DNA from: Paucibacter sp. DJ2R-2
GTDB lineage: Bacteria > Pseudomonadota > Gammaproteobacteria > Burkholderiales > Burkholderiaceae_C
Assembly (NCBI RefSeq): GCF_025717675.1
Contig: NZ_JAJIRT010000006.1
Location: 62,001-126,000 of the forward strand
Direction: 5' to 3'
DNA length: 64,000 nucleotides
This document shows, one piece after another, positions 5,917 to 46,769 of the stretch (positions are counted from its first letter, which is position 1; each line of letters starts with the position of its first letter). The translations under genes and the position numbers were made by a program. Below the pieces are notes generated by a model. The model ran no database searches and was not told the origin of the DNA. It worked only from the letters and a program-made list of their open reading frames with translations.

Positions 5917-5937
5917 GAATTGCTCCCTGGGCCCGAC

Positions 5938-29289: not shown

Positions 29290-30399
<1,110 letters not shown>

Positions 30400-30410
30400 T
30401 GTTCTCTCAA

Positions 30411-31319: not shown

Positions 31320-32227
31320 GCGCCCTTCCCCTTCATCGCCCCGTTGCTTCGAGCACGGCTGCGGGCGTAGAAAAACGGCGCCACCAGGGCCAGCACCGTC
31401 AGCAGCAGCACGATGGCGCCGGCCGAGGCCAGGGCCACATTGGCGCGGCCAAAGAGGTGGTCCATGATGAATTTGGCCGGCACATCGCTGGCCGTGCCGG
31501 GCCCGCCCTGGGTCATGGCCGCCACGGCATCGAACACCTTGACCGCCGCAGTGAAGAGCAGCACGAAGACCGTGGCGAACGAAGCGCCGAGCATGGGCAG
31601 GACGATGGACAGGTAGACACGCCAGGGCTTGATGCCGTCGATGCGGGCGGCCTTCCAGATGTCCTCATCGATGCCGCGCAGGCCGGCCAGCAGCAGGGCC
31701 ATCACCAGGCCCGAGGCCTGCCAGACCGAGGCAATCACCACGGTGTAGATGACCTTGTCCTGGTCGATGATCCAGTCGAAGGTGAAGTTCTCGAAGCCCA
31801 TCTGCCGCACCGCCTGCTGGATGCCGTCGGTGGGATTGAGCACCCACTGCCAGACCAGGCCGGTGGCCACGAAGGACATGGCGTAGGGATAAAGAAAGAT
31901 GGTGCGCAAAAGCCCTTCGCCACGCACCTTCTGGTCGATGAACACGGCCAGCAAGAAGCCGATCACCATGCAGGCCAGGATAAAGAGCAGACCGTAAACG
32001 GCCAGGTTCTCGAGCGAGAGCAGCCAGCGCTCGTTGCCGAACAGGCGCTCGTACTGGGCCAGGCCGACGAAGTCGTCCTTGGGGAAGGTGCGTGAGCTGC
32101 TCAGCGAAACGCGCAGGCTCCACAGCACCGCACCGAGGTAGCCCAGCAGCACTGTCAGCGCCATGGGCAGCAAGGCCGCCCAGGGTGTGAGCCTGCGAAA
32201 GATTGAAAGCCGTGGTTTGCTCGACAT
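31316..32227 (-). CDS. Sugar ABC permease (MalF/UgpA type)
   Basis: A 303-residue permease partner. Hydrophobic helices start at about residue 15; GLVWQWVLNP and the EAA loop DEDIWKAARIDGIKPWRVY identify it. Unlike the 507-residue MalF-like protein at 5.9-7.5 kb it lacks a long periplasmic loop, so it is the generic short type. It starts 13 nt after the binding-protein stop and overlaps the next permease by 4 nt. Confidence 0.9.
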   Translation of the reverse strand: MSSKPRLSIFRRLTPWAALLPMALTVLLGYLGAVLWSLRVSLSSSRTFPKDDFVGLAQYERLFGNERWLLSLENLAVYGLLFILACMVIGFLLAVFIDQKVRGEGLLRTIFLYPYAMSFVATGLVWQWVLNPTDGIQQAVRQMGFENFTFDWIIDQDKVIYTVVIASVWQASGLVMALLLAGLRGIDEDIWKAARIDGIKPWRVYLSIVLPMLGASFATVFVLLFTAAVKVFDAVAAMTQGGPGTASDVPAKFIMDHLFGRANVALASAGAIVLLLTVLALVAPFFYARSRARSNGAMKGKGA

Positions 32228-32240: not shown

Positions 32241-33530
32241 TCAGTTGCTGTTGAGCGCAGAGATCAGGTCTTTCTGCACTTTCTCGACCGGGATGTTGCG
32301 GTTCCAGTAAGCGGTGACGATGTCCTGCATGGCGCCGTTTTGATCCGGCGTCAGGTAGACCTCGCCATTGCCCAGGTGCCGCGACTTGTCCTTCATGATG
32401 GCCACGCCCTGCTGGCCGCAGAAATCGAGCTGGCTGGCATCGACATCGCTGCGCGCCGGGATCGAACCCTTCTTGATGCTGAAGGCAATCTGCGTGGCCG
32501 GTGAGGTGGCCACGGTGGCCAGCAGCTTCTGCGCCTTGATGGCCTCGGGCAGGTTGGTCTTGGGGAAGACCAAGACATCACCCTGGATGATGTAGGGCGA
32601 GTTGGGGCCGAAGCCGGCGATGCAGCCATAGTCGCGCCCGGCTTCCTGTTTGGCCAGGGCGAATTCGCCCTTGGCCCAGTCGCCCATGAACTGCACACCG
32701 GCCTTGCCATTGATCAGCAAGGCGGTGGCATCGTTCCAGTTCCGGCCCGGCGAGCCCTTGTCCACATAGGACTGCAAGCGTTTGAAGCTCAGCAGCACGT
32801 TCTTGAACTCGGGTGACATGATGGCCTTGGGGTCGCGGTCGCGCATGACCTTGAGGTAGAGCTCGCGGCCGCCGACGTTGCTGAGCACGGCGGCAAACAC
32901 CGTGTTGTCTTGCCAAGGCTGGCCGCCATGGGCCAGGCCGATCAGGCCCGCAGCCTTGAGCTTGTCGAGCGCGGCAAAGAGCTCGTCCATGGTCTTGGGC
33001 TCGGCCGCGATGCCAGCCTTCTTGAAGGCGGCCTTGGAGGTCCAGATCCAGGCCGGCATGTGGATGTTGACCGGCGCGGCATAGAAATGGCCCTTGACTT
33101 TGATGACCTTGAGCACCGTCTCGGGCAGGACCTGCTCCCATTTGCCGGCGGCGGCGGCCTCGTCGATGTTGTTCAGCAAGCCCTGGTCCACCACATCGAG
33201 GAACTGCTTGGAGGTATTGAACTGGGCGGCGGTCGGCGGGTTGCCGCCGATGATGCGGTTGATCGCCACCGAGCGTGCCTGCTCGCCCAAGGCCACGGCC
33301 GTGTCCTTCCAGGCGCCACCGGCGGCGCTGTAGGCGTCGGCCAGGGCCTTGACGGCGGCCGACTCGCCGCCCGAGGTCCACCAGTGGATGACTTCGGCCT
33401 TCAGCGGTGCTGCAGCAGGCGCAGCAGCCGGCTTGGTCTGCGCCTGGGCCGCTGCGGCAGCGCCAGCGAGAGTGGCAGTCGCGGCGAGCAAAAGGGCCAG
33501 CTTGCCCCAGACATGGTTCGCGTGTTTCAT
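32241..33530 (-). CDS. Periplasmic sugar-binding protein (family 1)
   Basis: A 429-residue solute-binding protein with a Sec signal peptide ending AAAQAQ. The mature part begins EVIHWWTSGGESAAVKALADAY, as in glucose/mannose-type binding proteins, and carries GLAHGGQPWQD and VQFMGDWAKGEFALAKQEAG. The ATG at 33530 overlaps the GH1 stop (ATGA); the frame is open upstream but inside GH1. It serves the two permeases and ATPase downstream. A paralogue with the same WWTSGGE, LAHGGQ-WQD and QLMGDWAKGEF blocks is at 45468 without permeases, beside a two-component system. Confidence 0.9.
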   Translation of the reverse strand: MKHANHVWGKLALLLAATATLAGAAAAAQAQTKPAAAPAAAPLKAEVIHWWTSGGESAAVKALADAYSAAGGAWKDTAVALGEQARSVAINRIIGGNPPTAAQFNTSKQFLDVVDQGLLNNIDEAAAAGKWEQVLPETVLKVIKVKGHFYAAPVNIHMPAWIWTSKAAFKKAGIAAEPKTMDELFAALDKLKAAGLIGLAHGGQPWQDNTVFAAVLSNVGGRELYLKVMRDRDPKAIMSPEFKNVLLSFKRLQSYVDKGSPGRNWNDATALLINGKAGVQFMGDWAKGEFALAKQEAGRDYGCIAGFGPNSPYIIQGDVLVFPKTNLPEAIKAQKLLATVATSPATQIAFSIKKGSIPARSDVDASQLDFCGQQGVAIMKDKSRHLGNGEVYLTPDQNGAMQDIVTAYWNRNIPVEKVQKDLISALNSN

Positions 33531-34909
33531 CGGTCCGCCTCTCCAGGCTGCAGGAACTGGGCATACCACTGGCCGCTGGCCTTCAGGGTACGTTGCTGGG
33601 TTTCAAAGTCGACGTAGCTCAAACCGAAGCGGCGCAGATAGCCCTCGGCCCATTCAAAGTTGTCGAGCAGGCTCCAGGCGAAATAACCTTTCAAGGGCAC
33701 GCCGGCCGCCATGGCGCGCTGGGCGGCGGCCAGATGGCGCTGCAGATAGCTGCGGCGCTGCACATCCTCAACACGGCCATCGGGCAACATCTCGTCCTCG
33801 AAGGTCGAACCGTTCTCGGTCAGGTAGACGCAGGACGGCGCGTAGTCGCGCTGGATGCGGGTCAGCAGGGTGACCATGCCTTCCGGGTCCACCTCCCAGC
33901 CGAAGGCGGTGCGCTCCACGCCGGGCGTCTCGACCACGCGGGTGGCGATGGGCGCCAAGCCCGGGGCGTTTTCTATCCGCTCAGGGAAGTAGTAATTGAC
34001 GCCCAGGAAATCGGTGGGCGTGGCAATCTCGCGCAGATCATTGCTGAGCAGCTGCGGCGCATCCGAACCCAGCAAGGCCAGCACATCCTCGGGGTAGCCG
34101 CGGCCGTGTAGCGGGTCCAGGAACCAGCGGTTGCGCAGGCCGTCGTGGCGGATCGCGGCGGCGGCATCCTCGGCGCTGTCGCTGGCCGGCGAGATCGGGT
34201 GCAGGCTCAGGGTGATGCCGACTTGCGCGCCAGGAACCATGCGCTTGATCAGCGGCACGGCGCGGCCATGCGAGAGCAGCAGGTGGTGGCAGACCAGCAA
34301 GGCGGTCTTGTGGTCCTTCAGGCCCGGCGCATGGTTGCCTTCGAAGTTGCCGAGGAAGGCGGTGCAATACGGTTCGTTGTGGGTGATCCAGTGCTTGACC
34401 CGGTCACCCAGGCGGCGCGTCACCAGTTCCGTGTACTCGAGGAAGGCGTCGACCGTGGCCCGGTTGGCCCAACCGCCCTGCTCCTGCAGGGCCTGCGGCA
34501 GGTCCCAGTGGTAGAGCGTGGCCCAGGGTTGCAGGCCGCGCTCCAGCATGCCGTCGACCAGGCGGGAATAGTAATCCAAACCCTTTTCATTGACGGCACC
34601 GCGGCCCTGCGGCAACAGGCGCGGCCAGGCGATGGAGAAGCGGTAGGCATTCACGCCCAGCTGCTTTGCCATGTCCAGGTCTTCGGGCCAGCGGTGGTAG
34701 TGGTCACAGGCGACGGCGCCGCTGCTGCCGTCGCGGATGCGGCCGGGTTCGCTGCAGAAACGGTCCCAGATGGATTCGCCACGGCCGTCTTCCTGCGCCG
34801 CGCCTTCGATCTGGTAAGAGGAGGTGGAACAGCCCCAGCGGAAATCGCTGGGAAAGTCGCGGCGCAGAACGCTGGCGCCGCTGTGGCTGGGGTCGGTCTT
34901 GAAATTCAT
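33527..34909 (-). CDS. GH1 beta-glucosidase, cytoplasmic
   Basis: A 460-residue family 1 beta-glucosidase splitting cellobiose- or laminaribiose-like oligomers. FRWGCSTSSYQIEGA at the N-terminus, acid/base Glu179 in THNEP and nucleophile Glu365 in LTENGS are intact, as is the SLLDNFEWAEGY substrate loop. No signal peptide. ATG at 34909 gives the standard start 2 nt after the GH3 stop; a longer frame runs to 35167 inside GH3 and is ignored. Position before the importer genes suggests it acts on the imported oligomers. Confidence 0.95.
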   Translation of the reverse strand: MNFKTDPSHSGASVLRRDFPSDFRWGCSTSSYQIEGAAQEDGRGESIWDRFCSEPGRIRDGSSGAVACDHYHRWPEDLDMAKQLGVNAYRFSIAWPRLLPQGRGAVNEKGLDYYSRLVDGMLERGLQPWATLYHWDLPQALQEQGGWANRATVDAFLEYTELVTRRLGDRVKHWITHNEPYCTAFLGNFEGNHAPGLKDHKTALLVCHHLLLSHGRAVPLIKRMVPGAQVGITLSLHPISPASDSAEDAAAAIRHDGLRNRWFLDPLHGRGYPEDVLALLGSDAPQLLSNDLREIATPTDFLGVNYYFPERIENAPGLAPIATRVVETPGVERTAFGWEVDPEGMVTLLTRIQRDYAPSCVYLTENGSTFEDEMLPDGRVEDVQRRSYLQRHLAAAQRAMAAGVPLKGYFAWSLLDNFEWAEGYLRRFGLSYVDFETQQRTLKASGQWYAQFLQPGEADR

Positions 34910-34911: not shown

Positions 34912-37479
34912 TCAGGGAGCGGGAGAAAATTGGGTGCAGCTCAAAGCATCGGGCTCTTGGGCCGCGCCGGCACGCACGCGGATGTTGGCGAAGGCGGCGG
35001 CAAACGGAGCGTCGGCCGTCAGGCTGAAGGGCGCGCCGATGCGGCTCAGGTCCGCACCTTGGGCGGCGAAGCAGGCGAGCGGGATCTTCAGGCTGTGGCG
35101 CTGCCCGGTGGGCAAAGCGCTGATCACGCGCTGCAGATCCAGCGTGCCGCCACAGCCCGGGCCGCATTCCATGCGCAGGCGCACGGGGCGCTGCGGCGCC
35201 TGCTCCGGCAGCAGGTCAAACACCAGAGCAGGTGCGGGGTAGACGGTCAGATCAGCTTGCTGGTTGGAGCCGATGTGGAAGGTGGCCGGGCCCATCCAGA
35301 CCAGGCGCTTGGCATCTTGCTGGGTGTTGATCTGGGTGGTCGAGACCCGGATCGCTGGTTGTTCGGCCGGGGCTTCCAGCACTGCATTGAGGTCGGAGCC
35401 GAGGCCGCGATTGGGCCAAGCGCCGCTGGGGCTGCCCACATGCATCTGGTACGGGCCCTGCCCCGTCTGGCGGAAGATCAACAGCTCTTTGGAGACATCG
35501 CAGCCGCCGCTGCGCTCGCTGACCGGCAGCTGCCGCACGGCACCCGGCTTGGCATAGCTGAGGCCATAGCCCGGCTTGAACAAGGGTGGGCTCTTGGCGC
35601 TGACGCAGGGCGCCGAGGGCCAGGCAAAGGGCAGCTTGGCGCGGAAGTCCTGCGCCGGCTGACCGGCCGCGTTCTTGAACAAGAGATCGGCCACGCCCGC
35701 ACCTTCGCTGCCCGGCAACCAGGCGGCGACGAAGGCATCGGACAGGTTGAGCAAGTCATTCGCGTAGACCGTGCGGCCACTCAGGAAGACGCTGATCACC
35801 GGCACACCGCGGCCGCTGACGGCGCGCAGCACGGCCAGATCTTCCGGGTAGCGCCGGCTGTGCTGCAGGGTGCTGGAGGGCGAGATGTCGCCCACCCCTT
35901 CGGCGTAGGGGGTCTCGCCGATAACAGCGATGACGGCATCGAACTGGCGCGGGTCCACACCGGCGCCATCGGCGCTGAAGCTCACATGCGCCGCGCCGGC
36001 AAGCTCACGAATGCCCGACAAGATGGACTGCGAAGCCGGGAAGTCGGCGTTCTGCGTGTCCGTGCCCTGCCAGGTCATGCTCCAGCCACCGGCCTGGTTG
36101 GCCAGGCTGTCGGCGCTCTTGCCGACCACCAGAATGCGCTTGCCTTGGGCCAGCGGCAGCGCGCCGCGCTCGTTCTTCAGCAGCACCAGGGTCTGGCGCA
36201 CGGCACGGCGAGCCAAATCGCGGGCCAGCAAGGCCTCAGGTCTACCGGCCACCACGCTTTGGCGCGGCGAGGTCTCGAACAGGCCGGCGCGCAGCTTGAC
36301 GCGCAGGATGCGCGTCACCGCATCGTCGATGCGCGACATTGGGATCTCACCGCGCTCGACCTGGGCGATGGTGTTCTGGATGAAGGCACGCCAGTCCTCG
36401 GGGACCATCACCATGTCGATGCCGGCCTTGATGGCCTGCGGGCAGCTGCTGTCTCGGCAACCGGGCACCTGGCTGATGCCGTTCCAGTCGGACACGACCA
36501 AGCCGTCAAAACCCATCTTCTGCTTCAAAGCCACGGTCAGCAGCTCATGGCTGCCGTGCATCTTGCCGTAGTCCTGGGCACCCGGCTTGGCAGCCACATC
36601 GGTCCAGCTGTGGAAGGAGGCCATGACCGTCTGCACACCGGTCGCCAGCGTGGCGTAATAGCCTTGGCCGTGCACATTGATCATCTGCGATCGGCTGACC
36701 AGGCTGTGGCCCTGGTCGCGGCCGAACTCGGTGCTGCCGTCGCCGATGAAATGCTTGGCCGTGGCTACCACCCGGCTGCTGTCGCCGAGCCGGCCTTGCA
36801 GACCGCGCACCGATGCGGCACCCAGGCGCGCCACCACCATGGGGTCGGCGGAAAAGCTCTCATAGGTGCGGCCCCAGCGCGCATCCTGTGCCACGGCCAG
36901 CGTCGGCGCGAACACCCACTGGATGCCGGTGGCGCGCACCGCGCGCGCCGTGGCCGCGCCGATCTCTTCCACCAAGGCCGCGTCACCCGCGGCACCCAGG
37001 CCGATGTTGTGCGGGAACAAGGTGGCGCCACGCACATTGCCATGGCCGTGCACGGCATCCGTGCCCCAGATGATGGGAATGGGCGTGCGCGCGCCGCTGG
37101 CAATCAAGGCCTCGTGGTAAGCCTGGGACAGGGCCACCCACTCGGCCACCGAAGCCTCGCGCTTGTTGCCCGGCCAGGCGCCGCCGCCATTGAGCACCGA
37201 GCCTATGTGATAACGGCCCGCCTCCTCGGGCGTGATGTACTTGATCTCGGGCTGGGTCATCTGCCCGACCTTCTCCGCCAGGCTCATGCCGGCGACGATG
37301 GCCCGGATGCGCGCCTCCATGGCCGGGTCGGCGAAGACGGCGCTTTTCACGGCGGGCCAGTCTTTCAGCAGGCGCGGCGCAGCCTCGGCCGGGCCGGTGG
37401 CGCAGAACAAGGCGGCCGCGCAAGCCAAGAGGCTTGGCACATGCCGACGGACAGGGGCTGGGGCTGGGGCTGGATGCAT
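34912..37479 (-). CDS. GH3 exo-beta-glucosidase, exported
   Basis: An 855-residue family 3 enzyme. A signal peptide ends around GPAEAA. The two-domain GH3 core includes GTDAVHGHGNVRGATLFPHNIGL, KHFIGDG (about 242-248) and the nucleophile Asp331 in VVSDWNG, with the alpha/beta sandwich domain after about residue 420. A C-terminal beta-rich extension (about 640-855) resembles the carbohydrate-binding domain of large exo-1,3/1,4-beta-glucanases. ATG at 37479 with GGGAAAG before it is preferred. An 83-nt gap separates it from the GH5 gene upstream. Periplasmic or outer-face release of glucose from beta-glucan is the likely role. Confidence 0.94.
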   Translation of the reverse strand: MHPAPAPAPVRRHVPSLLACAAALFCATGPAEAAPRLLKDWPAVKSAVFADPAMEARIRAIVAGMSLAEKVGQMTQPEIKYITPEEAGRYHIGSVLNGGGAWPGNKREASVAEWVALSQAYHEALIASGARTPIPIIWGTDAVHGHGNVRGATLFPHNIGLGAAGDAALVEEIGAATARAVRATGIQWVFAPTLAVAQDARWGRTYESFSADPMVVARLGAASVRGLQGRLGDSSRVVATAKHFIGDGSTEFGRDQGHSLVSRSQMINVHGQGYYATLATGVQTVMASFHSWTDVAAKPGAQDYGKMHGSHELLTVALKQKMGFDGLVVSDWNGISQVPGCRDSSCPQAIKAGIDMVMVPEDWRAFIQNTIAQVERGEIPMSRIDDAVTRILRVKLRAGLFETSPRQSVVAGRPEALLARDLARRAVRQTLVLLKNERGALPLAQGKRILVVGKSADSLANQAGGWSMTWQGTDTQNADFPASQSILSGIRELAGAAHVSFSADGAGVDPRQFDAVIAVIGETPYAEGVGDISPSSTLQHSRRYPEDLAVLRAVSGRGVPVISVFLSGRTVYANDLLNLSDAFVAAWLPGSEGAGVADLLFKNAAGQPAQDFRAKLPFAWPSAPCVSAKSPPLFKPGYGLSYAKPGAVRQLPVSERSGGCDVSKELLIFRQTGQGPYQMHVGSPSGAWPNRGLGSDLNAVLEAPAEQPAIRVSTTQINTQQDAKRLVWMGPATFHIGSNQQADLTVYPAPALVFDLLPEQAPQRPVRLRMECGPGCGGTLDLQRVISALPTGQRHSLKIPLACFAAQGADLSRIGAPFSLTADAPFAAAFANIRVRAGAAQEPDALSCTQFSPAP

Positions 37480-37562: not shown

Positions 37563-40136
37563 TCAGTTCGCGGCCTTCACCTCGATGTAGTTGATGTTCC
37601 ATTCCTTGCCGATCGACTTGATGCGCAGGCTGTGCGTGCCGGCCGGGATGCGGATCACCGGGCTGCTGTAGGTCTTCCAGGTCTGCCAGCCACCGGTGTT
37701 GGGCACTGCCTGGCTGTCCAGCTTGCTCTCGCCCAGCCAGACTTCGAAGCCGGTGCTGCCGTTGGCCGAGGCCAGGCGGTAGTCGATGACGAAGTTGGCC
37801 GCGCTGGCCACCGAGACCTTGAACTCGATGAAGCGATCGGGCTCGAAGTGGCCCACATTCTTGCCGCCGCCCACATCGCTGCAGTCCTCCAGCTGGATGC
37901 CGGACATGGCGGTGTAGGCCTCGGCCTCGATGCGGGCCGGCAAGGCGATCGCCTCGCTGTTGCTGCCGAGCTCATCGCTGCGATAGCTTTCATCCTCAGG
38001 GTCGGTCGCGGCCACGGTGTAGAAGTAGCGCTGACCGGGCTGGGCTGTGCTGTCGACATAGGCCGGGGTTTTCAAGCCCTCGGCCAGCAGCACCGCCTTG
38101 GCGCTGTCGCCGGGCTGGGTGCTGCGATAGACCTTGTAGCCGCTGAGGTCCGCTTCGGCATTGGCCGCCCAGCTCAGGCTGACGCCGGCACTGCTGGTGC
38201 TGAGCTTGAGCCCGGTCGGACGTGCGGGCAAGGTGTAGAGCGTGGTGCCCGTGCCTTTCAACTGCTGCAGCAAGCCCGGATGAGGCTCCAAAGCCTGCGT
38301 GCCAAAGCTCTTGAACAGGGCTTCGATCTCGGCCAGGGACGCCGTGTTGAAGTCCAGCTTGCCGCTGGGCTCGACGACATCCTGCCCGTTCACCGGCGGC
38401 TGGGCCAGCAGATAGACCTCGGCCCAGCTTTCCACGCTGCCGTTGTCCTTGAACACACCGTTGAAACGGTAGCTCTGGCCGCCTTGCAGGGTCACCGCCT
38501 GGTAGACCGCACCATTGATGTCCCCGCTCACGCCGGCAGGCCGGGTGACGCGCAGCACCGCGCCCTCGCCGCCCGTCGGTATTTGGCTGCTGTTGCGGGC
38601 GTTGAAGTCCAGGCCCAGGCTGCCGCTGATGTTCAGTGGGGTCCAGCCATTGCTGCTGCCGAACTCACCGTTGCTCAGCATCTCGGCCTTGCTGGCTTCG
38701 TTCACCAGGCTGAGCTTGTCATAGCTGACATCGGGCCGGCCATTGCCGGTGGCGCCGGTCTTGACGACCAGGTAGTAGGTCTTGGCACCGCTGCCGCCGA
38801 TCTTGATCGTGCCCGGGCTGCGCGCGCAGGCCGTGGCCAGGCTGCTGTTCCAGCCGGCGCAGTCCCAGCTGCTGGCCTTGGCCAGCAGGCCCAGGCCGCC
38901 GTCCTTGCTGCTGTCTACAGCGTTGGTCACCAAGCCCCAGCTGCCGCGGCCATGGCCGCCCTGGGCGCTGACGATCTTGTAGGACCAACTGGTTGCGGCA
39001 AAGCCCTTGGCCGCATAGCTGTCGTAGGTCGCGCGGCCGATCTTCCCGCCCAGCTCCAGGCCGGCGCCCTGCCAGGGCTGGAACTCACCCATCAACAGCG
39101 GCGTCTTGAGGGCGGTGATCTTCTTGCTCCACTCACAGATGCCGCCCTGCCCTTGCGGGCCGCAGCGCAGCCAATCGCGGTGGATGTCGTAGGCGCTATC
39201 GTTCGGCCGGTCTCCGAAGAGGCCGGGATAGGGGTGCAGCTCGAAAGCCACATTGCTCATGCCCTTGGCCGCCGGGTCGCCGTAGACCTCGATATTGCCG
39301 TAGTGACTGGGCAGCATGACGATGTGCTTGCTGTCGATCTTGCGTATGGTCTGGTAGAGCTCGGTGACACGTGTGGCCATGTCTTCCGGCGTTGAGCCCC
39401 AGGGCTCGTTGAGCGGGTCGTAGGCGGCCACCACCGGCTCGTCCTTGTAGCGGGTGGCGATCTGCTCCCAGAGCCAGCGCGTGCGGTCCTGGTACTCGCT
39501 GCTGCTCCAGTACTTGTTCTGGCCAGAGCAGCCGGTGTGGTCATTGGGGGTTTGGCCACCGAGGGCACCGTGCAGATCGAGGATCACGTAGATGCCGCGC
39601 TTCTTGGCCTCGGCAATCGACCAGTCCAGGTATTTCCAGGCATCGGCGCGCAGGGTCTTGGGCTTTTTTTCATCCTCGATCACGCTCCAGAGAATCGGCA
39701 GGCGCACGATGTTGAAGCCGAAGGCCTTGAGCTGATCCCAGTCGCGCTCTTTCATCCAGTTGTCGCGAAACAGAGCGATCAACCGGTCTTTTTCCGCGTC
39801 ACCGAAACGCTGGCTCAGCTTGGCCTCCAGCGTGCATTGGTCCACCACGCCGGCGGCGCCCTGGTCCATCATCCAGAACTCCTGGACCAGCCAGTTGCCC
39901 AGATTGCTGCCCTTGAGGGCGACCGGCGTGCCGCTGGCCTTGACCCATTGCGCGCCTTGGCTGCGCAGCAGGGTCAGCCCCTCTTCCGCCGGCGGCGGCG
40001 TCGGGACCGGGGCCGGCGGTGTGCCGCCCGAAGACGAGCCACCACAGGCCGACAAGGCCAGAACGGCCAGCAAGCACCAGGCGGGAATGAAGCCCTGGAC
40101 TGCGGCGACATGTTTGCGAGCGAAATTCAGTGACAT
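37563..40136 (-). CDS. GH5 beta-glucanase lipoprotein with jelly-roll, Fn3 and CBM6 modules
   Basis: An 857-residue surface or periplasmic lipoprotein. The lipobox LSAC places the lipidated Cys at residue 31, followed by a Ser/Gly/Pro linker. The GH5 barrel (about 55-430) starts with ALKGSNLGNWLVQEFWM, like exo-1,3-glucanase-type GH5 enzymes, with acid/base Glu244 in PLNEPWG and nucleophile Glu351 in LLMGEFQPW. Next come a jelly-roll domain (about 470-600), an Fn3 domain (about 636-728) and a C-terminal CBM6 (about 734-857, starting ARIEAEAYTAMSGIQ). CBM6 members bind beta-1,3- and beta-1,4-glucans. It is the first enzyme after the receptor gene (88-nt gap). Exact linkage preference is not decidable by eye. 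Confidence 0.9.
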   Translation of the reverse strand: MSLNFARKHVAAVQGFIPAWCLLAVLALSACGGSSSGGTPPAPVPTPPPAEEGLTLLRSQGAQWVKASGTPVALKGSNLGNWLVQEFWMMDQGAAGVVDQCTLEAKLSQRFGDAEKDRLIALFRDNWMKERDWDQLKAFGFNIVRLPILWSVIEDEKKPKTLRADAWKYLDWSIAEAKKRGIYVILDLHGALGGQTPNDHTGCSGQNKYWSSSEYQDRTRWLWEQIATRYKDEPVVAAYDPLNEPWGSTPEDMATRVTELYQTIRKIDSKHIVMLPSHYGNIEVYGDPAAKGMSNVAFELHPYPGLFGDRPNDSAYDIHRDWLRCGPQGQGGICEWSKKITALKTPLLMGEFQPWQGAGLELGGKIGRATYDSYAAKGFAATSWSYKIVSAQGGHGRGSWGLVTNAVDSSKDGGLGLLAKASSWDCAGWNSSLATACARSPGTIKIGGSGAKTYYLVVKTGATGNGRPDVSYDKLSLVNEASKAEMLSNGEFGSSNGWTPLNISGSLGLDFNARNSSQIPTGGEGAVLRVTRPAGVSGDINGAVYQAVTLQGGQSYRFNGVFKDNGSVESWAEVYLLAQPPVNGQDVVEPSGKLDFNTASLAEIEALFKSFGTQALEPHPGLLQQLKGTGTTLYTLPARPTGLKLSTSSAGVSLSWAANAEADLSGYKVYRSTQPGDSAKAVLLAEGLKTPAYVDSTAQPGQRYFYTVAATDPEDESYRSDELGSNSEAIALPARIEAEAYTAMSGIQLEDCSDVGGGKNVGHFEPDRFIEFKVSVASAANFVIDYRLASANGSTGFEVWLGESKLDSQAVPNTGGWQTWKTYSSPVIRIPAGTHSLRIKSIGKEWNINYIEVKAAN

Positions 40137-40224: not shown

Positions 40225-42996
40225 TCAGAACTTGTAGCTCGCGCCCAGCAAGACTTGGCGGCCGTAGGTCGTGTAGCGCTCGGGCATCAGGTTGTCCGGG
40301 TTCTTGGCATTGCCGACGCTGACGCTGGTGCGATAGGGCTCGTCGGTCAGGTTGTTGACCTGCAGCAGCAAACCCAGGCCCTTGAGGCTGCCGGTCTCGA
40401 AGCTGTAGCCGATCTGCATATCGGTCACCGTCTCCGAGTTGATGTTGCTGATCGCCTCGGAGTAGAAGATGCCGCGGGTCTTGGCGCTGTAGTCCGAGCG
40501 GTAGCGCTGGCTGATGCGGGCCGAGAAGCCGTGCTTCTCGTAGTAGCCCGTCAGGCTGCGCACCACGCCGGAGAGGCCGTCGATGCCGTTCTTGAAGCCA
40601 TCGTCATTGAGGTTGCTGCGTGTCTTCGAGTAGCTGGCCACCACGCCGAAGCCGTCCAAGATTGGCGTCAGCATTGCTGCCTCCAGCGATGCGGCGACTT
40701 CAAAGCCCGCCACCATGCCGCCGTTGCCGTTTTGCAAGGTGGTCAGGTTGCCGATATTGCTGGTCGGCACGACGGGCGGCTTGCCGGTGTTGGGGAAGCC
40801 GGTGAAGTCGTACTGCACCGTGCCCGAGCCGATGAAGTTGAGCAGATGCTTGTGGAAGATCGCGTAGGACAGGTAGCTGCGCTTGCCGATGTACTTTTCG
40901 AAGGACAGGTCCACCGAATCCGCCAACCAGGGCTTGAGCGTCGGGTTGCCGCCGCTGCCGTTCCAGGTCTTGGTGGTCGCGTCGACGCCGACGCCGGTGA
41001 AGCCGGCACGCATGTCATTCATGCGCGGGCGGGCGTTGGAACGCGCCAGGCCGAAGCGCACGATGGTGTTCGCGGGCAGCTCGGACACCAGGTTCAAACT
41101 GGGCAGCATGCGGCCATAGCTGGTGCCGCCGGTGATGGGCACGGCCTTGCTTCCATCCCAGACAAAGCCGTCGGACTCTTGCTGGGTGCGCACATATTGC
41201 AGGCCCACGTTGCCGCGCAGCGGATAGCCGAACAAGCTGGAGTCGATATTGCCCTGCACATAGGCCGTATTGACCTTTTCGGACACACCGTAATGGCGCG
41301 CGAAGGTCTGGTCCGCACCGATTTCGGTCTGGGTGTAGAGCGCATCCTTCACGCCCATCACGTCATAGGACACGATGGCCGGAATGCCGCCAAAGGCCAG
41401 CGAGCTGTTGCCCAGCAAGAAACTGGCGGGCACCGCGATCGGCGCACGACCGTTCTTCAGATTGAGCTGGTACTCCATCATGTCGACGTCTTTGCTGCGC
41501 TCGTTGAGGTTCAGCCCCAACTCCACGCTGCTGAAGAAGCCGGTCAAATCGCGTTTGGCCGACAGGCGCAGGGCCTTGATCTCGTCGTTCGACATCGGGT
41601 AGTTGCTGCGGCCGTCACGGCCCCAGCCGCCCGGGTCGCTGAGCAGCAGCTTGCTGGCGTCGCCGTAGTTGAACTGGGTGCTGACCTGCGAGATGCCGCT
41701 GCCGGTCTGCACATCGATGCCCAGCGAGGTGGTGCCGGGCGCACCGGCGCTCAGCTCCATGAACTGCTCTTGGCGCTTGGCGCGCGAGTAGCTGAGGTCG
41801 GCCACGGCCACCCAGTTGTCGCCCAGCTTCCATTTGTTGTTCCAGCCGACGGCGGCGATGTCGTCGTCGCGGGTGTTGTGCTGGCTCAGATGAACCGGCT
41901 TCAGATTGCCCACCGTGGCGCTGGTCACGAACTGATCGCCGTTGATCTCGCCCACTTTGACGTTCGAGTACTGCGGCTCGGTGGCCGCCGACCAGGTGGC
42001 GCCGAGGTTGGACATCAGGCCGCGGTAATTGCGTTCCTGCTTGAACTTGCTGTAGTACAGGTCCAGCACGCTGTGGAACTGGTCATTGGGCTTGTATTCG
42101 AGTGCGGCCATCAAGCCGTCCCGCACCTGCTTGGACGCGGTGACGGTATCTTCGAAGCCGTTCAAGGTCGCCACACCCTTGGGCACGCCGGGCACCTGGT
42201 CGCCCCATGGGCCGGTGTCGGCCCACCACCAGGATTTGTAATGGGTCTCTTGCCCCGGCGAATCGAGGTGGGCGAAGCCAATGGCCAAACCGATGGTGCG
42301 GTCGGCGAACTGGTCGATATAGGACGCGCTCAGGCGGTTGCCGCTGGCACCGGGGCCGGGCGTGACCTGGCCGTTGGAGTTGCGTTCAGCGCGGGCGTTC
42401 ATGACCAGCTGGCGGCCGCCGAAATTGAGCGGGCGCACGGTCTGCATGTCGATGGTGCCGGCCAGGCCCTGGCCGACCAGGCTGGCGTCCGGTGTCTTGT
42501 AGACCTTGACGGCGCTGAGCAGCTCGGACGGAAACTGGTCGAACTCCACACCGCGGTTGTCGCTGGTGCTGACCATTTCGCGGCCATTGAGCAAGGTGCC
42601 GGCGTAATTGCCCGCCAAGCCCCGCACCTGGATGCCTTGGGCGCGGCCGTCGACGCGCTGCGCCGTCAGGCCAGGCAGACGCGAGAGCGACTCCGCGATG
42701 CTGACGTCAGGCAGCTTGCCGATGTCCTCGGCCGAGATCACCTCGACGATGGAGTCGGCATTGCGCTTGGATGCGACCGAAGCCTCGATGCCGCGGCGGA
42801 TGCCGCTGACGACCACGGTCTCCAACTGCTGGGCGCTCTCGGCTTTCGTCGCTACAGGCGTTGCGGGCGCCGCAGCCACCTGAGCCTGCGCGGACTGCGC
42901 CGCGATCAGCAAGGTCACGCAAGCGGCGGCGACCGGGCTGATCTGCAAAGCCGAGGTGCGCCGGCACACGCTGCTGTATTGCTTGGAATGGTTCAT
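40225..42996 (-). CDS. TonB-dependent outer-membrane receptor (glucan type)
   Basis: A 923-residue TonB-dependent receptor, larger than but of the same class as the one at 1267. Signal peptide ends around AAQSAQAQ, then a possible TonB box LETVVVSG, plug motifs SAEDIGKLPDVSIAESLSRLPG and IQVRGLAGNYAGTLLNGRE, and a barrel ending in GASYKF with the terminal aromatic residue. ATG at 42996 has AGGAGA upstream. It heads the minus-strand enzyme/importer run and is divergent from the response regulator. Likely cargo is beta-glucan oligomers. Confidence 0.93.
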   Translation of the reverse strand: MNHSKQYSSVCRRTSALQISPVAAACVTLLIAAQSAQAQVAAAPATPVATKAESAQQLETVVVSGIRRGIEASVASKRNADSIVEVISAEDIGKLPDVSIAESLSRLPGLTAQRVDGRAQGIQVRGLAGNYAGTLLNGREMVSTSDNRGVEFDQFPSELLSAVKVYKTPDASLVGQGLAGTIDMQTVRPLNFGGRQLVMNARAERNSNGQVTPGPGASGNRLSASYIDQFADRTIGLAIGFAHLDSPGQETHYKSWWWADTGPWGDQVPGVPKGVATLNGFEDTVTASKQVRDGLMAALEYKPNDQFHSVLDLYYSKFKQERNYRGLMSNLGATWSAATEPQYSNVKVGEINGDQFVTSATVGNLKPVHLSQHNTRDDDIAAVGWNNKWKLGDNWVAVADLSYSRAKRQEQFMELSAGAPGTTSLGIDVQTGSGISQVSTQFNYGDASKLLLSDPGGWGRDGRSNYPMSNDEIKALRLSAKRDLTGFFSSVELGLNLNERSKDVDMMEYQLNLKNGRAPIAVPASFLLGNSSLAFGGIPAIVSYDVMGVKDALYTQTEIGADQTFARHYGVSEKVNTAYVQGNIDSSLFGYPLRGNVGLQYVRTQQESDGFVWDGSKAVPITGGTSYGRMLPSLNLVSELPANTIVRFGLARSNARPRMNDMRAGFTGVGVDATTKTWNGSGGNPTLKPWLADSVDLSFEKYIGKRSYLSYAIFHKHLLNFIGSGTVQYDFTGFPNTGKPPVVPTSNIGNLTTLQNGNGGMVAGFEVAASLEAAMLTPILDGFGVVASYSKTRSNLNDDGFKNGIDGLSGVVRSLTGYYEKHGFSARISQRYRSDYSAKTRGIFYSEAISNINSETVTDMQIGYSFETGSLKGLGLLLQVNNLTDEPYRTSVSVGNAKNPDNLMPERYTTYGRQVLLGASYKF

Positions 42997-43095
42997 GTCG
43001 GTTTGTCTCCTGTGACTGACCTTGGGCAAGGCTGAGGCAACAGCGATCGGACATTACACTGACCTGTTATGAATCGCTGAAACTGAAACGGATTC

Positions 43096-43131
43096 TTAAC
43101 GATGTTAATGCTTCATTAATTCGGTATTAAC
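43096..43131. promoter_or_regulatory. TTAA direct repeats, likely response-regulator box
   Basis: Four TTAAY elements (TTAAC 43096, TTAAT 43105, TTAAT 43116, TTAAC 43127) occur in tandem; the last three have an exact 11-bp period. This is the spacing of PmrA/QseB-type boxes bound by OmpR-family regulators. The array lies 43 bp before the response-regulator gene and 100 bp before the divergent receptor gene, so it could control both. Inference by pattern. Confidence 0.6.
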
Positions 43132-43173
43132 CCTTGAATTGATGAAATCACCACCCTCCAGCTGCCCGCCGCC

Positions 43174-43869
43174 ATGAACCTCTTGCTTGCCGAAGACGAT
43201 GCCATCCTGGCCGATGCCCTGACCGTGCAATTGCGGCGCAGCGGCTTCGAGGTGGAACACGCGCCCAATGGCGCGGTGGCCGAGTACCTCCTGCTCAAGA
43301 ACAGCTACGACATCGCCATCCTCGACCTGGGCCTGCCCATGGTGGACGGCCTGACCGTGCTCAAGCGCCTGCGCGCTGCACGGCGCGGCCTGCCGGTGCT
43401 GGTGCTGACGGCGCTGGACAGCCTCGACGACCGGGTCTCGGGCCTGAACGCCGGCGCCGACGATTACCTGACCAAACCCTTTGACTTCCCGGAGCTGCAA
43501 GCGCGCCTGCACGCTCTGCTGCGCCGCGGCCGGCCGTTGGCGGCAGGCCAGGACCTGGCACAGCTGAATTTCGACCGCGCCGCCCGCCGCGCCAGCGTGC
43601 AAGGCGAGGCGCTGGAGCTGAGCCCGCGAGAGTGGCTGCTGCTGGACCTGCTGCTGCAAGAGCGCGACCGCGTGGTCACCAAGGAGCAGATCGTGGCCGC
43701 TTGGGCGCAGGACCGCGGCGAGAACGGCGGCGGCAATTCGGTCGAGGTCTACATCCACCGCCTGCGCCGCAAGCTGGAAGGCTCGGGACTGCAGATTCGC
43801 ACCGTGCGCGGCCTGGGCTATCTGCTGGAGGCCGACAGCAGTGCCGGCGGAGCGCCCGCCGCGCCATGA
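43174..43869 (+). CDS. OmpR-family response regulator (QseB/TctD-like)
   Basis: A 231-residue DNA-binding response regulator. The receiver has the acidic pair EDD (7-9), phospho-acceptor Asp51 in ILDLGLP, and Lys101 in YLTKPF; the winged helix includes LELSPREWLLLDLLL and the recognition region VEVYIHRLRRKLEGSGLQIRTVRGLGYLLE. It overlaps the kinase gene by 4 nt (ATGA). The TTAA repeats before it suggest autoregulation. Divergent location from the glucan receptor suggests control of that locus. Confidence 0.93.
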   Translation: MNLLLAEDDAILADALTVQLRRSGFEVEHAPNGAVAEYLLLKNSYDIAILDLGLPMVDGLTVLKRLRAARRGLPVLVLTALDSLDDRVSGLNAGADDYLTKPFDFPELQARLHALLRRGRPLAAGQDLAQLNFDRAARRASVQGEALELSPREWLLLDLLLQERDRVVTKEQIVAAWAQDRGENGGGNSVEVYIHRLRRKLEGSGLQIRTVRGLGYLLEADSSAGGAPAAP

Positions 43870-45347
43870 GCACCAGCGCGCGCTCCCTGCACCGCCAGCT
43901 CTTCGTCTGGCTCTTGATGCCCCAGGTGGTGCTGTGGCTGGCAGCCGCGCTGTTCACCTACAAGCTGGCCGAACACTACGCCAACACCACCATCGACGCC
44001 AGCCTCTCGCAGACCTCGCGCACCCTGGCGCGCCAGGTCAAACCCCTGGACAACGGCCTGTTCATCGACTTCCCGCGTGCCGCGCAAGACATCCTGGAGG
44101 CCGACCCCAGCGACCGCGTTCTCTACACCGTCAGCATGCCGCCCGGCCAGTTCATCCTCGGCAACCGCAATTTGCCGCCGCTGCCGCGCGGCGCCAAGCC
44201 GGTCTATGGCGAGCCCTTTTTCTACAACGGCAAGCTGGCCGCCAACGACGAAGGCGGCACCGGCAGCGCGGCCGACAGCCCGGCCTGCGGCCCCGCCAAG
44301 ACCGAAGAACCGCAGCGCCTGCGCGTCGCCGCCCTGCTGCTGCGTTATGGCACGCCCGATTCGCCGGGCCAAAGCATGCTGGTCCAGGTGGCCCGCTCCA
44401 GCACCAACCGCGAAGCCTTGGCGCGGCAGATCCTGCTCGACACCGTCTTGCCCCTGTCCGCCCTGATGGCCTTGATGACCATGATCGTCTGGGCCGGCGT
44501 GCGCACCGGACTGCGGCCTCTGGCGGTCTTGCAGAGCCAGGTCGAAGGCCGCGCCGCCAATGACCTGACGCCCATCAAGATCAACGACGCGCCGCCCGAG
44601 GTGCGCTCCTTGGCCCTGGCCATGAACAGCCTGCTGGTCGAGGTCAACCACAATGTGGTGGCGCAAAAGCGCTTCATCAGCGACGCCGCCCACCAGCTGC
44701 GCACGCCCCTGGCCGGGCTCAAGAGCCAGACCGAGCTGGCCTTGCTGGACGCCCAGGCCCCGGCCCTGAAGGCCCGGCTGCAACTGGTGCACAGCAGCGC
44801 CACGCGCAGCGCCCATCTGGTCAATCAGTTGCTGAGCCTGGCGCGGGCAGAGCCCGAATCGGCCAGCCAGCAGGCGCGCAGCACCCTGGACCTGCGCCAG
44901 CTGGCGCGCGAAGTGACGACCGAGATGGTGCCGCGCGCACTGGCGGCGGGCATCGACCTCGGCTTCGAATCCGGCGAGCCACGCAGCCCCTGCCCGGTGC
45001 GCGGCTTCGAGTCCTTGCTGCGCGAGGCGCTGGTCAATCTGATCGACAACGCCATCCGCTACGCCGGCCGCGGCGCCAGCGTCACGGTGCGCGTCAGCCT
45101 GAGCGACGGTCAGGTGGTTCTGGAGGTCGAGGACAACGGCCCGGGCCTGCCCGAGAGCGAATGCGAGCATGTGTTCGAACGCTTTGTGCGCGCCACGCAC
45201 GACGGCACCGGCTGCGGCCTGGGCCTGGCCATCGTGCGCGAGATCGTCGAGCGCCATGCCGGCCGCGTGTCCTTGCGGCCGGTGCAAGCCCAGCCACCCT
45301 TGGGCTGCCTCGCGCGGGTCACCCTGCCGGCCGCAATTCAGGGATAG
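43866..45347 (+). CDS. Sensor histidine kinase (TctE-like)
   Basis: A 493-residue inner-membrane kinase. Helix 1 (about 12-32) and helix 2 (about 190-212) bracket a periplasmic domain of about 155 residues whose VLYTVSMPPGQFILGNRNLP pattern matches the TctE-type N-terminal sensor. Cytoplasmic motifs: H-box with His276 in ISDAAHQLRTPLAG, N-box EALVNLIDNAIRYA, and G-boxes DNGPGLP and GLGLAIVREI. Coupled to the regulator gene. The signal is unknown; TctE relatives sense carboxylates, often with a binding protein, and an orphan sugar-binding protein follows here. Confidence 0.92.
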   Translation: MSTSARSLHRQLFVWLLMPQVVLWLAAALFTYKLAEHYANTTIDASLSQTSRTLARQVKPLDNGLFIDFPRAAQDILEADPSDRVLYTVSMPPGQFILGNRNLPPLPRGAKPVYGEPFFYNGKLAANDEGGTGSAADSPACGPAKTEEPQRLRVAALLLRYGTPDSPGQSMLVQVARSSTNREALARQILLDTVLPLSALMALMTMIVWAGVRTGLRPLAVLQSQVEGRAANDLTPIKINDAPPEVRSLALAMNSLLVEVNHNVVAQKRFISDAAHQLRTPLAGLKSQTELALLDAQAPALKARLQLVHSSATRSAHLVNQLLSLARAEPESASQQARSTLDLRQLAREVTTEMVPRALAAGIDLGFESGEPRSPCPVRGFESLLREALVNLIDNAIRYAGRGASVTVRVSLSDGQVVLEVEDNGPGLPESECEHVFERFVRATHDGTGCGLGLAIVREIVERHAGRVSLRPVQAQPPLGCLARVTLPAAIQG

Positions 45348-45382
45348 CCCGCTCACCGCTGGTGCATTCAGCAGGCAAACTG

Positions 45383-45398
45383 TTAATTTCATGTTAAT
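45383..45398 (+). promoter_or_regulatory. TTAAT-N6-TTAAT box before the orphan binding protein
   Basis: TTAAT at 45383 and TTAAT at 45394 are 11 bp apart, matching the period of the repeats at 43105-43131. They lie 70 bp before the ATG at 45468 in an unusually AT-rich stretch, as expected for an OmpR-family site overlapping a promoter. Same regulator is the natural candidate. Confidence 0.6.
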
Positions 45399-45467
45399 AA
45401 TTAATGGAGGCCAGGGCCGCTGCTTCTTCTCATGTCGCGGCACTTGGCCCCAGATGGGGACCCGCCA

Positions 45468-46769
45468 ATGAAACCGAATCCCGCCCTGGGGCCGAGTCGC
45501 CGCCGCAACAGCACCAGCAGGCTGACGGCGGCGGCCCTGCTGCTGAGCACGCTGCTGCAGCCGGGCTTGCTTCGCCAGGCGCAGGCCGGCGATATCGAAG
45601 TGCTGCACTGGTGGACCAGTGGCGGCGAAGCGCGCGCCGCCCTGGCGCTCAAGGCCAGCATGCAGGCCAAGGGCCACAGCTGGAAGGATTTCGCCGTGGC
45701 CGGCAGCGGCGGCGATTCCGCCATCACCGTGCTGCGCTCGCGCGTGGTGTCCGGCAACGCGCCAGCTGCGGCTCAAATCAAAGGGCCTTCGCTGCAAGCC
45801 TGGGCGCGCGAGGGCGTGCTGACCAGCATCAACGAAGTGGCCCGGGCCGAACGCTGGGATGAGTTGCTGCCCCAGGTGGTCAGCGATCAGATGAAGTACC
45901 GCGGCGATTACATCGCCGTGCCGGTCAATGTGCACCGGGTCAACTGGCTCTGGGTCAACCCGGCAGTGTTTGCCCGCACCGGCGCCAAAGTGCCCAACAG
46001 CTGGGACGAGTTCTTCGCCGCGGCCGAGACTCTGAAAAAGGCCGGTGTGATCGCCCTGGCCCATGGCGGCCAGAGCTGGCAAGACCTGACCCTGCTGGAG
46101 ACTGTGGCCATCGGCGTCGGCGGCGCCGATTTCTACCGCAAGGCCTTTGTGCTGCGCGAGGCGGCCGAGTTGAGCGGCCCGACCATGGAGAAGGTGCTGA
46201 CAACCTACAAGCGCATCAAGCCCTACACCGACCGCAACGCCCCCGGGCGCGACTGGAACCTGGCCACCGCCATGGTCATCAAGGGCGAGGCGGCGATGCA
46301 GCTGATGGGCGACTGGGCCAAAGGCGAGTTCCTGGCCGCCGGCAGCCTGCCCGGCAAGGGCTTCATCTGCACGCCGGCGCCGGGCACGGCCAGGAGCTTC
46401 ATCTACGTGGTCGATTCCTTTGCCATGTTCAAGCTCAAGAACCCCGCCAACAGCGCGGCGCAGAAAGACCTGGCCAGCGCCGTCATGTCGCCCGAGTTTC
46501 AGGAGGCCTTCAACCTCAGCAAAGGCAGCATCCCGGTGCGCCTGGGGATGAAGATGGACCGTTTCGACGACTGCGCCAAGGCCTCGGCCCTGGACTTCAA
46601 CGCCGCCGCCAAATCGGCCTCCTTGCTGCCCTCGATCGCCAACGGCATGGCGGCGCCCTCGGCCATCGAGTGGGCGCTCAAGGACGCGGTGAGCCAGTAC
46701 TGGAACAGCGACAAGATGAGCGCGGCCGAGGCGATGAAGCGAATGGTCGAGGCGACTCGGGCGAAGTGA
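45468..46769 (+). CDS. Orphan periplasmic sugar-binding protein
   Basis: A 433-residue family 1 solute-binding protein, paralogous to the protein at 32241-33530: shared blocks include IEVLHWWTSGGEARAALAL, ALAHGGQSWQD and MQLMGDWAKGEFLAAG. The signal peptide runs to about LLRQAQA. ATG at 45468 with GGGGA upstream is preferred; an ATG at 45432 is in frame without a good site. No permease or ATPase is adjacent. It may donate sugar to the 29-33 kb importer or present ligand to the upstream sensor kinase. The preceding TTAAT box links it to that two-component system. Confidence 0.87.
   Translation: MKPNPALGPSRRRNSTSRLTAAALLLSTLLQPGLLRQAQAGDIEVLHWWTSGGEARAALALKASMQAKGHSWKDFAVAGSGGDSAITVLRSRVVSGNAPAAAQIKGPSLQAWAREGVLTSINEVARAERWDELLPQVVSDQMKYRGDYIAVPVNVHRVNWLWVNPAVFARTGAKVPNSWDEFFAAAETLKKAGVIALAHGGQSWQDLTLLETVAIGVGGADFYRKAFVLREAAELSGPTMEKVLTTYKRIKPYTDRNAPGRDWNLATAMVIKGEAAMQLMGDWAKGEFLAAGSLPGKGFICTPAPGTARSFIYVVDSFAMFKLKNPANSAAQKDLASAVMSPEFQEAFNLSKGSIPVRLGMKMDRFDDCAKASALDFNAAAKSASLLPSIANGMAAPSAIEWALKDAVSQYWNSDKMSAAEAMKRMVEATRAK

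Follow-up and report, generated by a model that had tools for sequence, protein, structure and literature searches.

The window, as we call the whole 64-kb stretch of DNA that was analysed, carries a two-component system flanked by a divergent TonB-dependent receptor gene on one side and a gene for a sugar-binding protein, SBP2, on the other (Table 1). Glycosidase genes and an importer with its own binding protein, SBP1, lie behind the receptor. The receptor is also divergent from the regulator in the related loci L002, L003-L005, L012, L032 and L101. The kinase and regulator genes overlap by 4 bases. A tRNA search of the window found none.

Table 1. Features around the two-component system, in window coordinates
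Feature	Position	Strand	Remark
SBP1 importer: MalF-, MalG- and MalK-type subunits	29290..32227	-	its MalF does not group with the Gts-type MalFs
SBP1, binding protein of this importer	32241..33530	-	
GH1 glycosidase	33527..34900	-	PF00232, 9e-160; same order in L002 and L012
GH3 beta-glucosidase-type enzyme	34912..37476	-	
GH5-type glycosidase with CBM6	37563..40136	-	
Divergent TonB-dependent receptor, TonB-Xanth-Caul subfamily	40225..43029	-	presumably controlled from the shared boxes
Four TTAA boxes (TTAAC, TTAAT, TTAAT, TTAAC) between receptor and regulator	43096..43131	+	TTAA at 43096, 43105, 43116 and 43127; likely a regulator-binding array
OmpR-family response regulator (receiver and Trans_reg_C)	43174..43869	+	
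Sensor histidine kinase: 2CSK_N (TctE type), HisKA, HATPase_c	43866..45347	+	from domain matches
TTAA boxes 5' of the SBP2 gene	45383..45405	+	at 45383, 45394 and 45401
SBP2, SBP_bac_1, GltB/GtsA-type glucose-binding protein	45468..46769	+	permeases lost

The two-component system and its TTAA boxes

A first-pass annotation had described the system as TctE-like, and the domain composition of both proteins bears this out. The sensor domain of the kinase is 2CSK_N (PF08521, 6.2e-30), which we take to be the domain assigned to the TctE and BctE kinases; by this domain match the kinase is of the TctE type. For the OmpR-type regulator the best NCBIfam profile is TctD and the next PmrA, both below cut-off (202 bits against a cut-off of 337 for TctD), and on these scores it is TctD-like rather than TctD. 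BasR/PmrA (4s04) is among its nearest solved structures.

The same annotation had pointed to TTAAY repeats with an 11-bp period in front of both the regulator and SBP2. The TTAA cores are spaced by 9, 11 and 11 bp 5' of the regulator and by 11 and 7 bp 5' of SBP2. Scanning the window for TTAAYN6TTAAY with at most one mismatch gave six matches, all exact; since TTAA is its own reverse complement, these are three sites counted once per strand. Among 100 shuffles of the window the mean was 0.22 matches, and none reached six. Genome-wide (5,795,653 bases) only three exact forward matches occur, all at the SBP2 and regulator promoters; the reversed control pattern has two. With one mismatch allowed, forward matches number 15 versus 54 for the control. 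Only the exact box is therefore informative, and a wider regulon in this genome, sought through one-mismatch matches, was rejected for want of any excess over the control. At C1:1518564 an 11-bp array stands 5' of a different OmpR-type regulator.

The spacing recurs in relatives. Across 162 distinct upstream regions from loci with this regulator type, 156 TTAA pairs lie 11 bp apart, followed by distances of 19 (100), 8 (51), 30 (36) and 20 bp (20), with no more than 12 at any remaining distance between 5 and 30 bp; divergent promoters enter these counts twice, once from each side, and related loci do not count as independent observations. Two 11-bp-spaced pairs stand 5' of the regulator in L002, L032 and L101 as well (L099 and L102 are the L032 and L002 loci again, with the same pairs), and a TTAA-N7-TTAA box stands 5' of SBP2 in all six genomes (L089-L094) of the clade described below as permease-less. 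Over 177 of 180 distinct homologue loci (the other three lie too near a contig end), the 86.9 kb close to the two gene starts hold 98 boxes versus 23 in 2.78 Mb elsewhere. The exact box is absent from the scanned stretches of 35 of the 83 loci with this regulator type, some of which have one 5' of a porin gene instead; relatives have further boxes before LamB-porin genes, glucokinase genes and one importer operon. Judged by these positions, the boxes in relatives mark a glucose-uptake regulon, and TTAAYN6TTAAY offers a simple box for finding this regulon in Burkholderiales. A chance AT-rich motif is rejected by the genome-wide rarity, the promoter enrichment and the 11-bp spacing peak. In sequence terms, the target promoters carry tandem TTAA-core half-sites of the PmrA type, head-to-tail with an 11-bp period. 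The link between the boxes and the receptor is one of position alone.

SBP2 and its permeases

SBP2 aligns with the solved glucose-binding protein 5dvf at 1.1e-133 over residues 38-432, a homology over the full mature length that places it by sequence in the GltB/GtsA family. In Pseudomonas aeruginosa, GltB works as an importer subunit and also activates a kinase: activation of GtrS-GltR by glucose requires gltB, the KD of GltB for the GtrS sensor domain is 0.1 uM, and the substitutions W33A, W34A and D301A abolish signalling (PMC7927077). SBP2 had been called a paralogue of the neighbouring importer's binding protein. The kinship holds, at 36-39% identity to SBP1, but SBP2 is a member of the GltB/GtsA family and not a spare copy of SBP1; a direct SBP1 duplicate is rejected, since homologues with permeases of their own reach 74% identity (L006). 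On this comparison SBP2 is a former glucose-importer subunit and not simply an SBP1 paralogue.

The gene order in relatives is regulator-kinase-SBP-MalFGK. Neighbourhoods were taken as 100 regions from a first homologue listing, and 40 regions and 30 short loci from a second. The 196 homologue matches reduce to 180 distinct ones, with importer genes following the SBP gene in 160 and absent in 15. Five were set apart: three on truncated contigs and two with a single importer-type match, namely L105 (MalF only) and the window, whose match is a 30% MalK-type ABC ATPase at 52761; this ATPase is not adjacent to SBP2, and the window is therefore counted as permease-less. At L049, 1.7 kb of sequence follows the SBP gene, and rows L236, L258 and L262-L264 show 1.5 kb downstream, their genomes having been searched whole.

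No permease gene adjoins SBP2, as had been claimed, and no GtsBCD-type operon is found beside it. The best match to a Gts-type MalF in the six genomes of the window's clade is 46-53% (one genome is 76% complete), while in three same-genus genomes it is 99-100% (one of these is the source of the query) and orthologous MalFs from other Burkholderiales match one another at 79-90%. By these matches the cognate permeases are lost in the clade. Nevertheless the SBP2 frame is open and stop-free in all six genomes, with dN/dS within the clade of 0.07, 0.11 and 0.18 (kinase, 0.10-0.13; regulator, 0.04-0.08). SBP2 is under purifying selection.

This bears on the view that the kinase senses a metabolite directly, with SBP2 a vestige on its way to loss. 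Such a view could draw on 2-ketogluconate and 6-phosphogluconate, reported, as related in PMC7927077, to bind the GtrS ligand-binding domain. The low dN/dS, the intact frames and the retention of SBP2's own TTAA box throughout the clade speak against it, as do the requirement for gltB in P. aeruginosa and the far weaker effect of both compounds than of glucose there (PMC7927077), and we regard it as very improbable.

SBP2 could still feed another importer, because two others, with MalFs 49-53% identical to the Gts-type MalF (none exceeds 53%), remain in the genome and SBP2 retains the consensus at 104 of 111 conserved columns (see below). SBP2 would then be a second binding protein for the importer at 29-33 kb or for the one on C1, widening the range of substrates with no part in signalling, and its place beside the kinase would be due to descent. 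The C1 MalF, at 53%, is no more distant than the alphaproteobacterial Gts-type MalF of L074 (53-56%), and SBP1 and SBP2 share one pocket substitution, H379N, as if they had the same cargo. However, both importers possess binding proteins of their own, and their MalFs fall outside the Gts clade in a midpoint-rooted quick tree. Moreover, the remaining five clade genomes yielded no C1-type MalF (best match, 46-47%), and of 31 gammaproteobacterial genomes picked for having a kinase-adjacent copy without permeases, 22 keep the family with no Gts-type permease anywhere (at 1e-50). GltB, too, is demonstrated to signal. We consider a purely transport-related role unlikely.

Residues of the glucose pocket

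SBP2 keeps 10 of the 12 glucose contacts described in PMC7927077; N301 is replaced by Val and H379 by Asn (window residues 335 and 413). With two of twelve contacts changed, glucose is not assured as its ligand. Both substitutions occur in all six clade members and in none of the permease-linked copies (0/160 and 0/41), and all 201 of these sampled homologues keep both N301 and H379. We define a clade-wide departure as a column in which no clade member has the consensus residue. Of the 111 columns whose conservation among permease-linked proteins is 97% or more, just two, 301 and 379, show such departures, both in the sugar pocket; at least one clade member departs at 12 of the 111, and the SBP2 of the window at seven. 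In a leave-out control with 160 groups of six permease-linked neighbours, none departed group-wide at any of the 12 contacts; 143 had no group-wide departure at all, eight had one, and nine had ten or twelve. By the same definition the kinase gives no sign of co-variation, with clade-wide loss of consensus at 0 of 116 conserved columns (37 of them in the sensor half). As far as sequence comparison can tell, the pocket changes probably lowered affinity or shifted the ligand.

Permease-less, kinase-adjacent copies from Vibrionaceae and one halomonad often alter 301 or 379 too (23 of 32 rows, or 21 of 30 distinct, L236 being L069 and L279 being L062; L268, altered and near a contig end, was set apart). 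Some Vibrionaceae copies lie beside a PTS sugar gene. N301 and H379 are kept in the other 9 of the 32 rows and in the permease-less L042, L049, L182, L193, L194 and L235, and the L182 locus has a regulator and kinase of the window's type. An independent-pair test of pocket change against permease loss yielded seven pairs, with a mean of 2.2 changing the same way and none the opposite way, which is not significant; a phylogenetically controlled link was thus not reached. Its tree, a quick tree with SH-aLRT support only, held 90 rows (87 different), made up of permease-less rows and chosen, random or every-third permease-linked rows.

SBP2 might also do both jobs, signalling to the kinase and feeding the SBP1 permeases in trans, a reading that overlaps the one we prefer. 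GltB serves import and activation alike in P. aeruginosa, and most conserved columns of SBP2 are intact, but its pocket is unlike that of SBP1 at positions 68, 92 and 301; we give this reading a minor share of the probability.

Proposed role of SBP2 and known systems

The explanation that we favour, and hold to be probable, is that SBP2 acts as a periplasmic co-receptor that presents ligand to the TctE-type kinase, and that the regulator governs its own operon together with SBP2 and, probably, the divergent receptor. The ligand-presenter role had been proposed in the first-pass annotation, and permease loss, selection, pocket changes and the P. aeruginosa precedent (PMC7927077) lend it support at the level of comparison. 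Taken together with the adjacency to the kinase, the lost permeases, the selection and the altered contacts suggest that SBP2 now mainly reports the presence of sugar. SBP2 would take up a glucose-type sugar freed from beta-glucan, close, and dock on the 2CSK_N domain of the kinase, which would phosphorylate the regulator. The regulator, as conservation and the PmrA paradigm suggest, would bind the head-to-tail TTAA half-sites 11 bp apart and raise transcription of its own operon and of SBP2, a feed-forward loop, and probably also of the divergent receptor and the glycosidase and importer genes behind it. The ancestral SBP2 would also have served ABC permeases of its own, like its counterparts in most relatives and like Pseudomonas GltB; after permease loss and pocket change, mainly the signalling role would be left.

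Tentatively, glucose-importer binding proteins may repeatedly have become dedicated sensors, low in affinity or re-specified and independent of transport, by dropping the permeases, keeping the kinase neighbour and retuning the pocket at 301/379. This reading would cover at least the Burkholderiales clade (TctE-type kinase), Vibrionaceae (HAMP-type kinase) and one halomonad. In our search of the openly accessible literature, we found no paper on permease-less GltB-type proteins beside kinases. The family, with a kinase neighbour and either with or without permeases, provides an evolutionary case for testing how transport proteins turn into receptors, and could separate the signalling job of the binding protein from the transport job, which are joined in GltB. 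The prediction is that reverting residues 335 and 413 restores tight glucose binding, the altered form having a higher or different signalling threshold.

The closest parallel is GltB(GtsA)-GtrS-GltR, in which a binding protein of the same family lies beside a kinase and response regulator, and the 12-contact numbering fits 5dvf. There the main target of the regulator is the SBP promoter, and the regulon comprises the SBP operon, porin and glucokinase (PMC7927077). The window locus differs in having no permeases, two changed glucose contacts, and the box TTAAYN6TTAAY rather than GTNACAAA. Its kinase has 2CSK_N and no HAMP match, whereas two vibrio-group kinases, scanned in place of the P. aeruginosa kinase, have HAMP and no 2CSK_N match; because the kinase types differ, the GtrS precedent may not carry over.

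The analogy drawn in the first-pass annotation to TctC-TctE-TctD is apt. The best profile for our regulator is TctD, and the kinase has the 2CSK_N domain that we assign to TctE and BctE. In the Bct system the binding protein presents the ligand, citrate-loaded BctC being reported to bind the kinase BctE (PMC9602780). SBP2, however, is an SBP_bac_1 protein of the ABC sugar type and not a TctC, and no tripartite transporter genes adjoin it. A binding protein next to a kinase does not in itself prove function: the P. aeruginosa neighbours PA0602-AgtS and PA4985-AruS are reported in PMC11113362 to show no interaction on testing, although these belong to a different SBP family (SBP_bac_8 for PA0602).

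As for the boxes, PmrA/BasR likewise uses head-to-tail half-sites with an 11-bp period, described as CTTAAT and CCTAAG, 5 bp apart (PMC3973317). As read from their alignment, the window regulator keeps the base-contact residues N188, V192, H195 and R210 and has Arg for N196 and Gly for T187; kinase and signal differ. Finally, the pocket positions have a counterpart in iGlucoSnFR2, built from the Thermus glucose-binding protein, whose H66A, L276V and H348A correspond by alignment count to K92, N301 and H379; the aligned Thermus residues at these sites are H, L and H, in keeping with the mutation names. Measured with other changes present, its Kd is about 500 uM with H348A and drops to about 3 uM on reversion. 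iGlucoSnFR2 is an engineered sensor, unlike the natural SBP2; among the sites that modulate its affinity, those at 301 and 379 are changed, singly or together, in the natural proteins without permeases.

A sugar-binding protein gene without adjoining permease genes

SBP2 is a sugar-binding protein (SBP) of the GltB/GtsA glucose-binding family whose gene follows those of a response regulator and a sensor kinase (table). Behind the divergent receptor gene lie GH5-, GH3- and GH1-type genes and then a complete importer, including its own binding protein, SBP1. A tryptophan-halogenase-family gene (PF04820; 27706-29226) ends this glucan locus.

Features of the regulator-kinase-SBP2 locus (window coordinates)
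Feature	Position	Strand	Remark
TonB-dependent receptor	40225-43029	minus	divergent from regulator gene
OmpR-type response regulator	43174-43869		
Sensor kinase with 2CSK_N domain	43866-45347		
SBP2, ABC-type sugar-binding protein	45468-46769		

Among solved structures, SBP2 is closest to 5dvf, a glucose-binding protein (1e-133) with residue numbers that agree with those of the P. putida protein in PMC7927077. It is followed by 8hqq (7e-122), which is labelled simply as a binding protein of a sugar transporter, by 4r2b (1e-111) and by 2b3b (2e-40), the glucose-binding protein of Thermus. In 160 of 180 distinct homologues, the SBP gene precedes two or all three of the importer genes. No permease adjoins SBP2 in the window; going downstream, the first importer-type hit is at 52761, where an ABC ATPase is matched at 30%. 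In L012, a related locus, the same regulator-kinase pair stands between SBP1-type genes and an SBP2 that has importer genes of its own, so the window arrangement would most simply have arisen by permease loss. Six permease-less proteins, that of the window included, make up a single clade (SH-aLRT 100) that branches from within the permease-linked proteins.

A search for the Gts-type MalF, the permease subunit normally encoded after this SBP family, gave best matches of 46-53% in the six genomes of this clade (G000, G006, G008, G009, G010 and G011, the last 76% complete), and of 99-100% in three congeneric genomes, including the source of the query. SBP2 could possibly use the permeases of SBP1 or of contig C1 in trans. 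MalFs encoded at this position elsewhere in the Burkholderiales share 79-90% identity with those of L012 or L003; for the window genome's own two MalFs the figure is 45-53%, and for the alphaproteobacterial L074 MalF 53-56%. The window-genome MalFs fall outside the Gts clade in a quick, midpoint-rooted tree. SBP2 itself is under purifying selection inside the window clade (dN/dS of 0.07, 0.11 and 0.18 against L032, L101 and L002, respectively). In L002, a glucokinase gene (PF02685; 11289-12326) sits directly 3' of the permease-less SBP2.

The glucose pocket

Twelve glucose contacts are given, in P. putida numbering, in PMC7927077. The window clade keeps ten; N301 is replaced by V and H379 by N in all six members, and both residues are kept in 160/160 and 41/41 permease-linked homologues (two samples). 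Among 111 columns at least 97% conserved in permease-linked proteins, at least one clade member departs at 12 and SBP2 at 7, and only at 301 and 379 do all members depart. As a control, six neighbouring permease-linked proteins at a time were set aside, giving 160 such groups: 143 had no group-wide departure, 8 had one, and 9 divergent groups had ten or twelve; none of the 160 had one at a glucose contact. Counted on the alignment, 301 and 379 correspond to Thermus L276 and H348. Three positions modulate affinity in iGlucoSnFR2, and these are two of them; the sensor's Kd is ~500 uM, versus ~3 uM with H348 restored (PMC12609159). From this correspondence, glucose binding by SBP2 would be expected to be weaker or altered.

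Kinase-adjacent permease-less rows from Vibrionaceae and one halomonad number 32 (30 once two loci listed twice are removed). One of the two positions is changed in 23 of them (21 of the 30), 379 to Q or A or 301 to T, and neither in the other 9. Of 31 genomes with such a copy, 22 have no Gts-type permease at 1e-50, the pocket being changed in 18 and unchanged in 4; in the 9 with such a permease elsewhere, the permease-less copy is unchanged in 5 and changed in 4. Six other permease-less rows, from the sample of 180 homologues (L042, L049, L182, L193, L194 and L235), are unchanged at both positions. On the tree, the pocket state switches 6 times and the permease state 11 times. Of 7 independent pairs, an average of 2.2 agree in direction and none goes the opposite way, which is not significant.

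A second sugar-binding protein of the window genome (C47:231487-232683; locus L088:6299-10006) is 34% identical to SBP2, and its gene is directly followed by those of an OmpR-type regulator and a HAMP-type kinase. Its pocket has K92 changed to N and N301 to S. No MalF/G/K-type match was found around it in the 15 kb of L088, and a 38% identical relative of the halogenase adjoins this trio.

TTAA boxes at the regulator and SBP2 promoters

The first-pass annotation had placed TTAA repeats of 11-bp period at both promoters, and counts in the window, the genome and its relatives bear this out. With one mismatch allowed, three places in the window match TTAAYN6TTAAY, where 0.22 matches would be expected; the exact pattern occurs three times in the whole 5.8 Mb genome, always at the regulator and SBP2 promoters. 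Across the loci compared, exact matches number 98 in 86,850 bp around both gene starts versus 23 in 2,779,458 bp elsewhere. Window included, a TTAA-N7-TTAA core stands before the regulator gene in 18 of 27 loci and before SBP2 in 26 of 81 (three of these regions being empty), and the SBP2 box is kept in 6/6 window-clade genomes. Exact boxes accompany 48 of 83 loci with the window regulator type versus 19 of 94 in which no regulator match reaches 50% identity (Fisher 2.6e-7, with relatives counted as separate loci). Core-to-core distances are 11 bp in 156 cases, then 19, 8 and 30 bp, as two dimer sites separated by 8 bp would give.

Some loci that seemed box-less have a box before a LamB-porin gene (scanned: L009, L139, L163 and L177), and L183 and L187 have one before a glucokinase gene. 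In L003, L004 and L005 (~1828-7000), an importer operon with a GH1-type gene sits between the regulator and kinase genes; it begins with an SBP gene, and 69 bp ahead of that gene is a box of its own. Another response regulator gene of the window genome, OmpR-type by reading of the sequence, also has a TTAA array of 11-bp period before it, an imperfect one (C1:1518564-1518590, locus L310).

A putative sensory role and its known counterparts

Glucose cannot activate GtrS-GltR of P. aeruginosa without GltB, which binds the GtrS sensor domain (KD 0.1 uM), the sugar pocket being required; the main target of GltR is the gltB promoter (PMC7927077). Similarly, citrate-loaded BctC binds BctE, raising expression of its operon (PMC9602780). 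On these precedents, the most likely role of SBP2 is to present sugar to the 2CSK_N kinase. Sugar-bearing SBP2 would engage the kinase, and the regulator would act through the TTAA boxes on its own operon and SBP2, and probably on the divergent receptor too. None of the conserved kinase columns shows a clade-wide departure, as would be expected with docking still through the same SBP surface. Two kinase types occur beside this one SBP family, 2CSK_N (window, L012) versus HAMP-type (two vibrio-group kinases scanned). An SBP gene next to a kinase gene need not be functionally linked to it (PMC11113362). A search of the open-access literature found no paper on permease-less GltB-type proteins beside kinases. 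In three vibrio loci (L066, L069 and L070), a permease-less regulator-kinase-SBP trio is divergent from a PTS sugar transporter gene within 4 kb before the regulator (EIIC-EIIB in a scan of L069), which suggests that the SBP there senses sugar for a non-ABC transporter.

Among solved structures, the window regulator is closest to those of BasR/PmrA (8jo2, 4s04). The site bound by PmrA has two hexamers, CTTAAT and CCTAAG, arranged head to tail with 5 bp between them, giving the same 11-bp period as the boxes here (PMC3973317). Read from the alignment, the PmrA base contacts N188, V192, H195 and R210 are common to the window regulator, whereas N196 and T187 are not (PMC4660055).
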